DNA of 64,000 bases, taken from the NCBI RefSeq assembly GCF_003074135.1, contig NZ_PPDK01000001.1:620001-684000 (forward strand). Direction: 5' to 3'. A program made the position numbers and the translations under genes. Shown one piece after another: positions 8,637-14,341 of the stretch. Within the stretch, counting starts at the first letter, position 1, and each line of letters opens with the position of its first letter. The notes beneath the pieces were generated by a model that saw only the letters and a list, made by a program, of their open reading frames with translations, ran no database searches and was not told the DNA's origin. Source of the stretch: Euzebya tangerina. GTDB lineage: Bacteria; Actinomycetota; Nitriliruptoria; Euzebyales; Euzebyaceae.

Positions 8637-10022
8637 TCAGCGATCTCCTGCGTCGAGGCCGGGCAGCCAGCGCGTGACCTCCGCGCGCACGGGGACGGTG
8701 GCCCGCAGCTGACACAGCACGCCGACGACGCCCAGCCACACCCGGTGCGTGAACAGGTGCTCTGGCGGCATCCGGAGTTGGAGTGCGACGGCGAAGTCGG
8801 GATTCCGAGGGTCACCCAGCCGGCCGAAGTGGGTGCTCAACCACTCGGGCGTGAACGTGAACGTCTCGTGCCGGCTGGGTTCGGTGAACGGGGAGAGGTA
8901 GTCCCGGAGCTTCACGGCATCGACGCGCGAGCCGGGGCTGATGAACCCCTCCCGCTCCAGCGCGTCTCGAAGGTCCGCGTCGATGCCGGTTGTGCCGACG
9001 CCGCGAGCGGAGGACGGGGTGGATCCGGCCTCCTGCAGCAGACGGATGAGCGTGCCAAACGTCGCCGGCATCCCGTCCGGCATGGGCAACGCAGAGCCGA
9101 AGTCCAGCACACCCAGCTGGCCGTCGGGCGTCCAGCGGAAGTTGCCGGGGTGGGGGTCGGTGTGCAGCCAGCCGGAGCGCTCGGGGCCCGAGACGGCGAA
9201 GCGCATATAGGCCAGCGCGGCCGCGTCTCGCGTTGACTGGTCGGCCTGGCCGGGCGACCCGTCCGCCGGGTTGCGGGGAGCGAGGTCGGTGAACGGGGTG
9301 CCATCCAGCCACTCGGTCACCAGCACCCGCTCGGTGGCGTGGACCACCTTGGGTACGATGACGTCGTCGTCGGCGTAGGCGCGGACGAACGCGCGCTGGA
9401 CCGTGGCCTCCCGCCGGTAGTCAAGCTCTTCGGAGAGCCGGTCGCGCATCTCTGCGACCAGTGGCGGGAGGGCCATACCCGGTGCGATCAGGGCGGCGAA
9501 GCGGGTGAACACCGAGACGGCGGCGATGTCGACGCGCAGGGCCTCAGCGATCCCGGGGTACTGGATCTTGACGGCCACGTCGCGGCCATCGTTCCAGCGG
9601 GCTCGATGCACCTGGCCGAGGGAGGCGGCTGCGGCGGCGGCGGTGGAGAACTCGGTGAAGTGCTGGCGCCAGTCCTGGCCGAGCTCGTCGATGAGCGTCG
9701 GCTCCAGATCGGCGAATGGCATGGCCGGGTTGTCGGCCGGCAAGGTCGCCAGCGCCGACTGCCAGGTGGCCTCCGGGTCGGCGGGGAAGAGCGCGTCGAC
9801 GGTCGCCAGGAGTTGGCCGGCCTTGAGTGCCCCGCCCTTGGCCTCGCCCAGGACGCTGCGGGTGCGGTCCGCGCCGCGCCGGCGAAGATCGGCGGTCACC
9901 GCACCAGGGGCTTCGCCCCGCCAGCGTCGGACGGCGCCCTCTGCCGCGTCGCGCAGGGAGCCGAGCGGCAGCCGGCTCAGGCGCGCTATCCGGCCCACTA
10001 CCAGAATGGTTGCACGGGCCAT
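8637..10022 (-). CDS. ABC1/AarF (UbiB) family atypical kinase
   Basis: A 461-residue protein of the ABC1 family. It shows the KxGQ-type helix (GALKAGQLLATVDALFP, about residue 62), the AAAAASLGQVHRA nucleotide loop, the AVKIQYPG lysine, and the catalytic HTDPHPGNF and VLDFGSALP motifs. These atypical kinases or ATPases act on isoprenoid-quinone or lipid homeostasis. The family-typical start region begins with the ATG at 10022; the frame is open upstream but reads as low-complexity Arg/Pro-rich sequence. No strong ribosome site precedes it. It converges with the glucosidase gene. Confidence 0.85.
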   Translation of the reverse strand: MARATILVVGRIARLSRLPLGSLRDAAEGAVRRWRGEAPGAVTADLRRRGADRTRSVLGEAKGGALKAGQLLATVDALFPADPEATWQSALATLPADNPAMPFADLEPTLIDELGQDWRQHFTEFSTAAAAAASLGQVHRARWNDGRDVAVKIQYPGIAEALRVDIAAVSVFTRFAALIAPGMALPPLVAEMRDRLSEELDYRREATVQRAFVRAYADDDVIVPKVVHATERVLVTEWLDGTPFTDLAPRNPADGSPGQADQSTRDAAALAYMRFAVSGPERSGWLHTDPHPGNFRWTPDGQLGVLDFGSALPMPDGMPATFGTLIRLLQEAGSTPSSARGVGTTGIDADLRDALEREGFISPGSRVDAVKLRDYLSPFTEPSRHETFTFTPEWLSTHFGRLGDPRNPDFAVALQLRMPPEHLFTHRVWLGVVGVLCQLRATVPVRAEVTRWLPGLDAGDR

Positions 10023-10087
10023 TCGAGCAAACCGTGCCGTTAGTGCTCGAGCGAGTCGCCCTTCGCCATCATCCCGTGGACCTGCCG

Positions 10088-10942
10088 TCACGCAGCGGGG
10101 TGGTCCTGGTCGGCCGCGCGGTCGCGGTCGGTCGACCGGGCGAGGGCCGGCAGCACCTCGCTGAGGCTGGCATCCACCTTCACGGTGGCCAGGTGGTCCC
10201 CGCGGCTCTGGCCACGGGTGACGATGGCGATGGGCAGTTCGGCCTTGTCGGCTTGGAGCACGAGGCGATAGCCACTCATGACCGTCAGGCTGGACCCGAG
10301 CACCAGCAGGCCGGCCGACTCGGCCAGCAGGGCCGATGCGTGGTCCCGCCGAACGCGTGGCATCGACTCGCCGAAGAAGACGACATCCGGTTTGAGGACC
10401 CCACCGCAGTTCAAGCACGGGGGGACCCGGAAGGTCTCCACCTCGTCGTCGGGCAGGTCGGCGTCGCCGTCCGGTGCGATGGTTGCGCTGCGGGTGTGGA
10501 AGTCCGGGTTCAGCTCCGCCAGTCGCGCCGCGAAGGATCGGCGCGTGGTCAACTGCCCACACGAGGTGCAAATCACCCGGTCGACGCTGCCATGCAGTTC
10601 GACGACGTCCTCGGCGCCAGCCCGCTGGTGCAGCCCATCGACGTTCTGGGTGAGGACCGGCCCGACCAAACCCTCGGTCTGCAGTGCCGCCACGGCGCGG
10701 TGGCCGTCGTTGGGCTCTGCTGCTGCCATCCAGCGGTAGCCGACGTGGCTACGGGCCCAGTACCGCCGTCGGGTGTGCGGCTCGCGCATGAACTCGCGGT
10801 AGCGGATGGAGGGGCGCCTCCGCTGATCCACACCGGAACCCCGGTAGTCGGGGATCCCGGAGTCGGTCGAGATCCCGGCGCCGGACAGGACGGTCCATGG
10901 CCTCGTCCCGGCCACCAGCTGCTCCAGGTCCACGACGCTCAT
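10088..10942 (-). CDS. SIR2 family NAD-dependent protein deacylase
   Basis: A 284-residue sirtuin. NAD-binding motif LSGAGISTDSGIPDYRG lies at about residues 18-34, the catalytic histidine is in TQNVDGLHQRAG (about 96-107), and a four-cysteine zinc site is formed by CTSC and CLNC. GSSLTV in the C-terminal Rossmann half is intact. It would remove acyl groups from lysine side chains using NAD. The insert between the zinc-cysteine pairs is longer than in the minimal class. GGTGGGACG before ATG 10942 supports the start. It lies 49 bp from the dehydrogenase gene on the same strand. Confidence 0.9.
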   Translation of the reverse strand: MSVVDLEQLVAGTRPWTVLSGAGISTDSGIPDYRGSGVDQRRRPSIRYREFMREPHTRRRYWARSHVGYRWMAAAEPNDGHRAVAALQTEGLVGPVLTQNVDGLHQRAGAEDVVELHGSVDRVICTSCGQLTTRRSFAARLAELNPDFHTRSATIAPDGDADLPDDEVETFRVPPCLNCGGVLKPDVVFFGESMPRVRRDHASALLAESAGLLVLGSSLTVMSGYRLVLQADKAELPIAIVTRGQSRGDHLATVKVDASLSEVLPALARSTDRDRAADQDHPAA

Positions 10943-10991
10943 CGACGTCCCACCGTAGCCAGGGACGCCGCACGCCGAACCAGGCCCGTGG

Positions 10992-12419
10992 TCAGAGTGC
11001 GAACCCGGCGACCTTGGTCTCGAGGTACTCCGCCAGGCCCTCGTGGCCACCCTCCCGACCGAGCCCCGAGTCGTTCATCCCACCGAACGGGACGGTGGCC
11101 GAGGTCGGGTTCACGTCGTTGACGCCGATGATCCCGAACTTCAGCCCCTCGACCGCTCGCATGGCCGTCTTCAGATCACTGGTGTACACGTAGGCCGCAA
11201 GGCCATAGTTGGTGTCGTTGGCCGCCTCGATCACCGTGTCCACGTCGTCGTAGGTGATGACGGGCGCAACCGGCCCGAAGGTCTCCTCGCGGTAGATGGC
11301 CATGTCGTCGGTGACGTTGTTGAGGATGGTCGGGGCGTAGAAGTGACCCGCTGCCAGATCACCATCCGTGACCCGTCGACCCCCGACCGGCACCGCGGCA
11401 CCCTTGGCCCGGGCATCCTCCACCTGCGCCTCGACCTTGGCCACGGCGGCCTCGTTGATCAGCGGCCCGACCTTCACCCCATCGGTGGTGCCGACTCCGA
11501 CCGAGATCTTCTCCACGCGCGGGACGATCGTGTCGATGAACGCCTGCTGGGCGGAGTCGTGGACGTAGAGCCGGTTGGGGCTGATGCACGCCTGCCCGGA
11601 GTTGAGGAACTTCAGGGCCGCGGCCCCCTTCGCAGCGTGGACGGGGTCGGCGTCGGGGAAGACGATGAAGGGCGCGTGACCGCCGAGTTCGACCGACACC
11701 CGCTGGAGGTTGGACGCGGCCTTGCCGGCCAGGACCCGCCCCACCGCTGTCGAGCCCGTGAAGGTCAGCTTGCGGACGCGAGGGTCGCCGGTGAAGACGT
11801 CGCCGACGGGCTTCGGGTCGCCCGTGGTCACCAGGTTCACCACACCCGGCGGGAACCCGGCGTCCTCGAAGACGTCGATGACGGCCTGGGCGCACAGCGG
11901 CGTCGCCTCGGCGGGCTTGAGCACCATGGTGCAGCCGGCTGCGAGCGCCGGCCCCATCTTCCTCGTGAGCATCGAGATCGGGTAGTTCCACGGCGTGATG
12001 GCCGCGACGACCCCGACGGGTGCGTGGGTCTGCAGGAACCGTTGGTCGGCTCGTCCACTGGTCAGCCACGCGCCCTCGATGCGGCGGGCCTCCTCGGCGA
12101 ACCACCGGAGGAAGTCGGCGCCGTAGATGACCTCCGCCTTGCTCGCACGGAGGGGCTTGCCCTGCTCGGTCGTCATCAGTCCGGCCAGGTCGTCAGCCCG
12201 GTCGAGCATCAGCTGCCAGGCCGTGTGGAGCAGGTCGGCTCGCGCGAACGGCGGGGTCCCCGCCCAGGCCGTCGCCGCATCAGCGGCCGCGTCGATCGCC
12301 GCGGTGGCGTCAGACGCCGCACCGTCCGGAACGCGACCGATCACCTCGCCCGTGGCTGGGTTCGTCACCTCGAAGGTGTCGCCGGATGCCGCGCTGACTC
12401 GCTCGCCGTTGATGTACAT
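10992..12419 (-). CDS. gabD: Succinate-semialdehyde dehydrogenase, NAD(P) dependent
   Basis: A 475-residue aldehyde dehydrogenase. Diagnostic motifs are ITPWNYPISMLTRKMGPALAAG, the general-base glutamate in VSVELGGHAPFIV, and the catalytic cysteine in NSGQACISPNR. FGGMNDSGLGREGG near the end is characteristic of the GabD branch. It would oxidise succinate semialdehyde to succinate in GABA breakdown; other aldehydes remain possible. The start MYINGERV at 12419 matches family length; an upstream TTG at 12428 is an alternative. It is divergent from the carboxylase gene across 56 bp. Confidence 0.85.
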   Translation of the reverse strand: MYINGERVSAASGDTFEVTNPATGEVIGRVPDGAASDATAAIDAAADAATAWAGTPPFARADLLHTAWQLMLDRADDLAGLMTTEQGKPLRASKAEVIYGADFLRWFAEEARRIEGAWLTSGRADQRFLQTHAPVGVVAAITPWNYPISMLTRKMGPALAAGCTMVLKPAEATPLCAQAVIDVFEDAGFPPGVVNLVTTGDPKPVGDVFTGDPRVRKLTFTGSTAVGRVLAGKAASNLQRVSVELGGHAPFIVFPDADPVHAAKGAAALKFLNSGQACISPNRLYVHDSAQQAFIDTIVPRVEKISVGVGTTDGVKVGPLINEAAVAKVEAQVEDARAKGAAVPVGGRRVTDGDLAAGHFYAPTILNNVTDDMAIYREETFGPVAPVITYDDVDTVIEAANDTNYGLAAYVYTSDLKTAMRAVEGLKFGIIGVNDVNPTSATVPFGGMNDSGLGREGGHEGLAEYLETKVAGFAL

Positions 12420-12475
12420 GGCCTGCAATCTAGTGGCTCCGGCTGTCCTCCGAGCCGGCGGGATAGGTTGTCGCG

Positions 12476-14341
12476 GTGCCCACCGACGTCGTTGCCCCGT
12501 TCGCCGCCACCGTCGCAGAGATCGCCGTCGAGGTGGGTGCCACCGTGGAGGAGGGGCAGACACTGCTGTTCCTCGAGATCATGAAGATGGAGCAGCCGGT
12601 CACGGCCGCGACCGCTGGTGCCGTCGACCGGATCTCGGTGGAGGTCGGTGACACGGTTGAGGCGGGGACCGTTCTGCTGGTCCTCGCGACCCCCGAACCC
12701 TCCGCCCTTGAGTCGGCCGCGCGCCAGGCCGACGATCCGGGGCCACGGGCCGATCCGGGGCCACGGGCCGATCGAGGTACCCGCGGCGACCTCGCCAGGG
12801 TCCACCGGCGACGCGCACAACTGGAGGACCAGGCCAGGCCAGAGGACATGGCCAAGCGACATGGTCGTGGCCACCGCACCGCTCGGGAGAACATCGCCGA
12901 CCTGGTCGATGAGGGCAGCTTCAGCGAGTACGGGGGGCTGGTGATCGCAAGCCAACGCTCCCGACGGTCGCTCGAGGATCTGCAGGAGCGCACCCCGGCG
13001 GACGGCATGATCACCGGCACGGCCACGATCGGCGCCGCGGTCCACGGGGCGGAGCGGTCGCGGGTCGCAGTGGTCGCCTACGACTACACCGTCCTGGCCG
13101 GGACACAGGGCTGGGCCAATCACCGCAAGCTGGACCGCCTGCTGGACCTCGCGGACCGGGAGGCGTTGCCGCTGATCGTCTTCGCGGAGGGCGGCGGGGG
13201 ACGACCGGGCGATGACTACCTCGGCGCCTCGCTGCTCGAGGCGCAGGCGTGGGAGCTGCTGTGCCGTCTGTCGGGCCGGGTGCCCCTGCTCGCCGTCGTG
13301 AACGGTCGGTGCTTCGCCGGCAACGCGGCCCTTGCCGGTGCGTGTGACGTGATCATCGCCACCGTGGGGTCGAGCCTCGGCATGGCCGGACCGGCGATGA
13401 TCGAGGGCGGCGGGCTGGGGTCGGTCCACCCCGACGAGGTCGGGCCCATGCACGTCCAGACCGCCGGAGGTGTCGTGGATGTGCTGGTGGAGGATGAGGC
13501 GGCCGCCGTCGCCGAGGTCAAGCGGCTGCTCGGGTTCTGGCAGGGCCCGATCGATCACGGCCAGGATCCTGGTGCGGGCCCCGACCCCGAGGTGCTGCGC
13601 GACGCGGTTCCGGAGAACCGCAAGCGGGTGTACGACATGCGTGACCTGCTCGACGGGCTGGTGGACCCCGGCTCGATGCTGGAGCTTCGCGGGCCAGTCC
13701 GCGTCGGCGACGGGGCGGGGGGTTCATGGCAGGAGTACGCGCCGGGAATGGCCACCGGCTTCGCGCGCATCCAGGGACAGCCGGTCGGCATCCTCGCCAA
13801 CGTCCCCACCCACCTCGGCGGGGCGATCGATGCCGAGGCTGCCGACAGCGCGACCCGCCACCTCCAGCTCTGCGACAGCTACCGACTGCCGCTGGTCGTG
13901 GTGTGCGACACCCCGGGGTTCATGGTCGGGCCGGACGCCGAGCGTGATGGCGGGGTTCGTCGGTTCTCGCAGATGTTCCTGGCCGGCTCGCGGCTGACCG
14001 TCCCGGTGATCGTCGTCATCGCCCGCAAGGGGTATGGCCTCGGCGCCCAGGCCATGATGGGGGGCCACCTGAACGTCCCCCTCCTCACGGTGGCCTGGCC
14101 GACGGCCGAGCTCGGCCCGATGGGCCTGGAGGGAGCGGTCTCGCTGGGGTACCGGCGCGAGTTGGAGGCGATCGAGGACCCGGTGGCCAGGGCGGCTCGT
14201 GAGGCGGAATTGATCGATGAGGCCTACGCCGCCGCGGGTGGTCTGAACGTCGCCAGCTTCGGCGAGATCGACGACGTGATCGACCCCGCCGACACCCGCC
14301 TGAGGATCGTGCAGGCACTCGCGGCCGCTCGTCCTCGGTAG
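12476..14341 (+). CDS. Biotin carrier domain fused to acyl-CoA carboxyltransferase
   Basis: A 621-residue fusion. Residues 1-75 form a biotinyl domain with LFLEIMKMEQP, Lys37 being the biotinylation site (EIMKM rather than the usual EAMKM). A Pro/Arg-rich linker at about 76-110 is built partly from an exact 18-bp DNA duplication. Residues 110-620 are a carboxyltransferase of the propionyl/acetyl-CoA carboxylase beta type, with GGGRPGDDYLG, GRCFAGNAALAG and the C-half VVVCDTPGFMVG and KGYGLGAQAMMGG. It would transfer carboxyl from its own biotin to an acyl-CoA. No biotin carboxylase is in the window, so the first half-reaction needs a partner from elsewhere. Start is a GTG at 12476. Confidence 0.85.
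   Translation: MPTDVVAPFAATVAEIAVEVGATVEEGQTLLFLEIMKMEQPVTAATAGAVDRISVEVGDTVEAGTVLLVLATPEPSALESAARQADDPGPRADPGPRADRGTRGDLARVHRRRAQLEDQARPEDMAKRHGRGHRTARENIADLVDEGSFSEYGGLVIASQRSRRSLEDLQERTPADGMITGTATIGAAVHGAERSRVAVVAYDYTVLAGTQGWANHRKLDRLLDLADREALPLIVFAEGGGGRPGDDYLGASLLEAQAWELLCRLSGRVPLLAVVNGRCFAGNAALAGACDVIIATVGSSLGMAGPAMIEGGGLGSVHPDEVGPMHVQTAGGVVDVLVEDEAAAVAEVKRLLGFWQGPIDHGQDPGAGPDPEVLRDAVPENRKRVYDMRDLLDGLVDPGSMLELRGPVRVGDGAGGSWQEYAPGMATGFARIQGQPVGILANVPTHLGGAIDAEAADSATRHLQLCDSYRLPLVVVCDTPGFMVGPDAERDGGVRRFSQMFLAGSRLTVPVIVVIARKGYGLGAQAMMGGHLNVPLLTVAWPTAELGPMGLEGAVSLGYRRELEAIEDPVARAAREAELIDEAYAAAGGLNVASFGEIDDVIDPADTRLRIVQALAAARPR
12734..12769 (+). repeat. Tandem 18-bp duplication in the carboxylase linker
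   Basis: The 18-mer GATCCGGGGCCACGGGCC occurs twice back to back, giving duplicated DPGPRA residues in the linker between the biotinyl and carboxyltransferase domains. The phase is kept, so the linker is lengthened by six residues. It looks like a recent slippage event. Confidence 0.85.

Follow-up and report, generated by a model that had tools for sequence, protein, structure and literature searches.

Biotin carboxylases are usually thought of as fixed three-part machines. A gene of Euzebya tangerina at positions 12476-14341 of the window (the whole 64-kb stretch of DNA analyzed here) raises the question of how such a machine operates when its ATP-using part is missing, while the carrier domain (BCCP) and the carboxyltransferase (CT) stay fused, well conserved and, apparently, in several lineages.

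Domain organization and kinship

The gene lies on the forward strand, with a GTG start and the stop codon included in its coordinates, and codes for a protein of 621 aa (~65.0 kDa), with GC contents of 78/50/87% at codon positions 1/2/3. A Pfam search with this ORF placed Biotin_lipoyl (family E 3e-15) at residues 11-70 and Carboxyl_trans (E 1e-76) at residues 128-618 (12857-14329), bearing out an earlier note on this DNA that had read a carrier and a carboxyltransferase joined in one chain. The carrier domain occupies residues 1-70 (12476-12685), with the protein beginning no more than ~10 residues ahead of the BCCP core, and is followed by a flexible linker at approximately residues 71-103 (12686-12784). 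In the AlphaFold model (mean pLDDT 81.0, pTM 0.75), the carrier is a β-strand fold with a mean pLDDT per ten-residue block of 75-94 up to residue 70, and the predicted pLDDT falls below 50 at residues 74-99 of the linker and also in two short CT loops. The predicted biotinylation motif EIMKM (12575-12589) satisfies the E-x-M-K-x lysine context, and M36 and K37 are invariant in 26 aligned rows. This context suggests that Lys37 (12584-12586) would be biotinylated, and the motif, the residue and the 65-kDa product all agree with the earlier note.

No BC (biotin carboxylase) domain was found in the chain by the Pfam search or by an open-frame check: the open frame, at 624 aa, exceeds the called ORF by just 3 codons, and therefore no in-frame BC is hidden upstream. 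BC queries likewise had no match at E<=1e-3 in the 64-kb window. The BT-like region linking BC to BCCP is absent too, as judged from the N-terminus, where the chain starts at the BCCP. The upstream neighbor is a divergent aldehyde dehydrogenase gene, whose likely start (MYINGERV...) at 12419 leaves a divergent intergenic region of 56 bp (12420-12475). We can confirm that the gene joins a BCCP and a complete CT without a BC in the chain or in the window, and the absence of a BC from the chain noted earlier stands on the Pfam search, the open frame and the BC queries alike. The contrast drawn there with the actinobacterial two-subunit acyl-CoA carboxylases also holds: these pair an alpha subunit uniting BC and BCCP with a separate beta subunit whose CT chain lacks a carrier, whereas the window CT chain bears Biotin_lipoyl.

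What the earlier account missed was the identity of this module, its wide spread, and the status of EIMKM as a variant. The best sequence match in the PDB is 4rcn, a single-chain long-chain acyl-CoA carboxylase (LCC; query residues 7-612, E 1.3e-166), followed by 5fif, a CT domain that its record title assigns to a single-chain carboxylase (YCC; E 3.2e-146), with the PCC beta chains matching at ~1e-60 only. Comparison of the predicted structure with known folds again placed 4rcn and 5fif first, and then transcarboxylase 12S and PCC beta. The lead of 4rcn in both orders identifies the protein, at the level of sequence and predicted structure, as a BC-less variant of the LCC-type single-chain carboxylases, equivalent to their C-terminal BCCP-CT half. 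In LCC (the SACE_3154 group of PMC6491548), the BCCP similarly sits directly ahead of the same type of CT, and the two proteins are 48-49% identical along the fold alignment; however, LCC has the BC and the region between BC and BCCP, both of which the window protein lacks. The blocks FAEGGGGRPGD, G-CFAGNA, and YGLGA-AM are conserved within the family of the window CT, which falls among the LCC-type rows of the tree described below, apart from two further CTs encoded in the same genome. The CT domain of YCC is alike (TM ~0.9 to the predicted fold of the window protein), although YCC carries all its domains in one chain and the window protein is without a BC. As summarized in PMC6491548, LCC is a homohexamer acting on C2-C16 acyl-CoA, with a Km for palmitoyl-CoA 350-fold below that for acetyl-CoA. 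Because LCC thus prefers palmitoyl-CoA over acetyl-CoA, the substrate of the window protein is, by kinship, probably a medium- or long-chain acyl-CoA. Searches of the open-licence PMC literature turned up no account of an LCC-type BCCP-CT fusion.

Phyletic spread and architectural history

The same two-domain protein is found in three congeners (G022, G023, and G024; 66-67% identity to the window protein), so that 4/4 sampled genomes of the genus have the BC-less form and the fusion is not a product of chance or a sequencing accident. Relatives were recovered with a profile search, near-exact peptide patterns having returned none. At E<=1e-100, 17/66 genomes of the class have a match: by their frames and BC searches, 14 of these are BCCP-CT (one broken in frame and four on contigs of <4.2 kb with little upstream DNA), two are BC-BCCP-CT, and one is truncated at a contig edge. 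An even sample of the phylum yielded matches in 39 of 396 genomes, namely 20 BCCP-CT, five BC-BCCP-CT, and 11 with the CT alone, with three matches (G088, G178, G280) left out of the architecture reading. The best 80 of 575 candidate loci from named genomes, which do not represent frequencies, comprise 65 BC-fused and 15 non-fused loci, some of the latter on short contigs; a BC lies within 6 kb of one of the 15 (L255). No BC was found beside the BCCP-CT gene at 22 BCCP-CT loci searched, with 3.1 to 17.5 kb of DNA each. The form also occurs in the single-contig genomes G404, G169, and G094, and, among named genomes, in Rhodococcus rhodnii NRRL B-16535 (L209). It is hence stable, recurrent and widespread, not a local oddity.

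Two side observations concern the matching loci themselves. At L102, in a single-contig genome of the class (G039:C1:982475-984043), the CT is divided between two reading frames, either as a decayed copy or by a base-calling error. A third form (L150-L160) has an LCC-type CT alone, without an adjoining BCCP or BC match in 10 of 11 contexts; at L160, a BC-BCCP gene and a second CT lie a few kb from the lone LCC-type CT.

A quick maximum-likelihood tree with SH-aLRT support only was computed for 77 CTs (37 BC-less, 27 BC-fused, 11 CT alone, and two outgroup sequences), with 45 of the 72 BC-fused rows left off for speed and four loci dropped, viz., L099 (contig edge), L102 (frame broken), L103 (short), and L192 (same contig as L084). 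The window row falls in a starred clade of 11, all of them BC-less and all from its own class. With the outgroup label included, architecture requires 12 changes on this tree; parsimony for BC-less versus the rest gives eight changes without and 10 with the outgroup, and the starred branches alone force at least four changes for the BC-less label. A single clade of all BC-fused rows was rejected (AU p=0.0113), and one of all BC-less rows was borderline (AU p=0.0503). The family has thus switched domain architecture more than once, and a single origin of the BC-less form is only borderline rejected. Two loci (L228, L236) on contigs titled Bifidobacterium breve group were placed with Acidimicrobiales in this tree, and their titles look wrong.

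The carrier of the BC-less form is about as conserved as that of the BC-fused form, with no sign of decay. Comparing pairs at matched CT identity, pairs that are not independent of one another, the mean BCCP identity in BC-less versus BC-fused pairs was 0.398 versus 0.400 at 55-60%, 0.406 versus 0.413 at 60-65%, and 0.448 versus 0.451 at 65-75%; at 50-55% the means of 0.361 (29 BC-less pairs) and 0.419 (two BC-fused pairs) come from too few pairs to weigh. The motif is slightly looser: the residue preceding MK is other than A/S in eight of 37 BC-less rows (window excluded) and in none of 59 BC-fused rows (of 72, the other 13 falling outside the search pattern). Seven of the eight belong to the class of the window organism, and EIMKM is accordingly a variant of the usual E-A/S-M-K-M found mainly in that class.

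Source of the carboxyl group

The earlier note had proposed looking through the genome for carboxylases without a carrier; none was found, as all six BC matches of the window genome (G000), each of them translated, carry one, with the motif EAMKM in the C-terminal half of the chain. One of the six belongs to a pyruvate carboxylase and one to an 1854-aa multidomain chain. The three congeners have four BCs each, 12/12 with a carrier in frame, and no dedicated carrier-less BC occurs among the 18 BCs found in these four genomes of the genus. All 16 further BCCP-CT genomes searched have at least one BC. They contain 43 BC rows altogether, one of them scoring under the cut-off; 30 rows were read, and of these 28 have a BCCP in frame (three of them assigned by the matching frame of separate matches), one has a separate adjacent carrier (G048), and one runs off the end of its contig. 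G404, on a single contig and 99% complete, has a single BC match and five CT matches, G350 and G295 (97% each) a single BC match and three CT matches each, and G043 (92%) one BC and four CTs. In the first three the single BC is part of a BC-BCCP chain of ~600 aa, and one CT per genome is the BCCP-CT protein. With one BC for three to five CTs, the BC of these three genomes must already be shared among CTs, and a BCCP-CT protein in single-BC genomes, if BC-dependent, must share that one BC.

By a narrow measure, we favor the proposal that the protein is a BC-less acyl-CoA carboxylase of the LCC/YCC type, whose carrier would receive its carboxyl group in trans from a shared BC-BCCP subunit. Under this proposal, a housekeeping BC-BCCP alpha subunit that also serves the other CTs of the cell would generate carboxybiotin on Lys37; the N-terminal carrier, tethered by its flexible linker, might then swing into the CT site of its own chain or of a neighbor in an oligomer, and thereby feed its own C-terminal CT, which would carboxylate an acyl-CoA, probably of medium or long chain. 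Here we infer the borrowing of the BC, the substrate and the oligomer alike. Two known systems offer precedents. According to PMC5407890, AccA3 of Mycobacterium tuberculosis serves AccD4, D5, and D6, i.e., one BC chain for several CTs, as proposed here, although the AccD4/5/6 CT chains are without a carrier and the window CT chain has one. In the two-subunit pyruvate carboxylase, one chain bears the BC and a second chain the CT and BCCP (PMC5059739), an arrangement matching our reading in having the carrier on the CT chain and the BC elsewhere; however, its CT is of the pyruvate type and its BC chain is dedicated, and no dedicated one was found for the window protein. Several observations count against charging in trans: the BC and linking region that hold LCC together are missing from the window protein, no conserved neighbor ties the BCCP-CT gene to any BC in the loci compared, the mean BCCP identity of the BC-less pairs is the lower one in the lowest CT-identity bin, on the few pairs given above, and the biotin motif of the BC-less proteins is looser.

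The main alternative, which we regard as unlikely, is a BC-independent acyl-CoA:acyl-CoA transcarboxylase, in which the carboxyl group of malonyl- or methylmalonyl-CoA would pass to Lys37-biotin and on to a second acyl-CoA at the same kind of site without ATP. The corresponding broader proposition, that several Actinomycetota lineages would run such a BC-free, ATP-free transfer from malonyl-/methylmalonyl-CoA to longer acyl-CoAs, seems similarly doubtful. It would account for the want of a dedicated BC in all four congeneric genomes searched and for the repeated swapping of BC-fused and BC-less forms while carrier and CT persist; the equal conservation of the carrier fits it as well as it fits the shared BC. 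Transcarboxylase 12S of Propionibacterium, a BC-free biotin enzyme, is also among the nearest folds of the predicted CT structure, but that enzyme is built of separate 12S, 5S, and 1.3S subunits, with the carrier thus on a chain of its own. Furthermore, PYC_OADA, the mark of the 5S subunit, was found once in G000, in a 1162-aa frame also holding BC and BCCP, i.e., within the pyruvate carboxylase, and in none of six other BCCP-CT genomes, and a BC is always available in the 16 further genomes counted above. Both charging in trans and transcarboxylation, the two options raised in the earlier note, remain the main ones, and its interpretation is partly supported; its wording that a partner BC must act in trans was overstated for an inference.

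A split LCC with a dedicated but unlinked BC partner bearing a redundant BCCP appears still less probable: the surplus of BCs in the window genome (six versus four in each of the three congeners) would be in its favor, but G404, G350, and G295 have a single BC match apiece and therefore none to spare for such a partner, and none of the BCs at the eight loci examined had an LCC BC query as its closest. G048, which belongs to the same class and also has the BCCP-CT protein, encodes a separate BC adjacent to a carrier gene, so that a trans BC could nevertheless be dedicated in some lineages. We consider it very unlikely that the protein is a biotin-dependent acyl-CoA decarboxylase of the methylmalonyl-/malonyl-CoA type, whose carrier would deliver CO2 either to water or to a pump in the membrane. 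Its best NCBIfam match is indeed mmdA, methylmalonyl-CoA decarboxylase alpha (residues 108-617, E 3e-73), but the score of 247.4 bits is far under the cut-off of 998.8, and the Na+-pump beta subunit PF03977 was found in 0/7 genomes in a search that was positive in 2/14 controls. Neither a classical decarboxylase nor a classical transcarboxylase thus turned up in these seven genomes. Slightly less credible again is a decayed or truncated, inactive LCC, or a BC missed by the assembly. Intact orthologs in the three congeners, conserved CT motifs, placement within the starred all-BC-less clade, and the same form in the three single-contig genomes stand against it, while the window assembly, at 98.27% completeness in 12 contigs, is not closed, and the split CT of the class relative G039 would be in keeping with decay.

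Genomes with one BC, several CTs, and one BCCP-CT protein offer a clean test of whether a foreign carrier is charged or the enzyme works BC-free, and either answer would change the annotation of orphan CTs and carriers in actinobacteria. Among the BCs of the window genome, the 1854-aa chain with BC, BCCP, and CT matches (L059:5042-10603; G000:C1, ~160-166 kb) resembles the multidomain actinobacterial ACC described in PMC6491548.

Leads set aside and gene neighborhoods

A Rosetta-stone link to the free carrier NCBIfam NF004547, which we take to be TB7.3, was kept as a lead only. Among the 11 genomes with a lone LCC-type CT whose contexts were examined, 10 give an above-cut-off match to NF004547 (those of G216 and G261 lie in frames of 342 and 386 aa), versus 54/396 genomes overall. 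The link is weakened by the presence of such carriers also in relatives without a lone LCC-type CT, and by the score of 65.3 for the window BCCP with a profile of 26 free carriers, which is not the best: profiles of the BC-fused proteins, the alpha subunits, and the BC-less proteins from other classes gave 73.1, 75.6, and 78.2, respectively. A link to AccD3 of M. tuberculosis was dropped, since its published properties, viz., no partner in the pull-down and <20% identity to other CTs (PMC4347857), do not fit the type of the window CT.

No conserved operon was found around the BCCP-CT gene. AMP-binding enzymes are encoded at 9/50 loci (window included), with varied distance and orientation, and a Sir2 gene lies near 4/113 loci, three of them in the genus; function from neighbors was set aside, and neither was used as evidence. 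In the window, the Sir2 NAD-dependent deacetylase gene (10088-11050, reverse strand; NF003738 over the cut-off) lies within ~4 kb of the BCCP-CT gene, as it does in the three congeners and in G043. Mammalian SIRT4 acts on biotin carboxylases, and the Sir2/BCCP-CT pairing may be functional or mere synteny. The Sir2 ORF is overlapped on the same strand by an ORF for an ABC1-type kinase (8637-10571, reverse strand), for whose first ~190 residues neither Pfam nor NCBIfam has a matching family, and whose true start probably lies further downstream.
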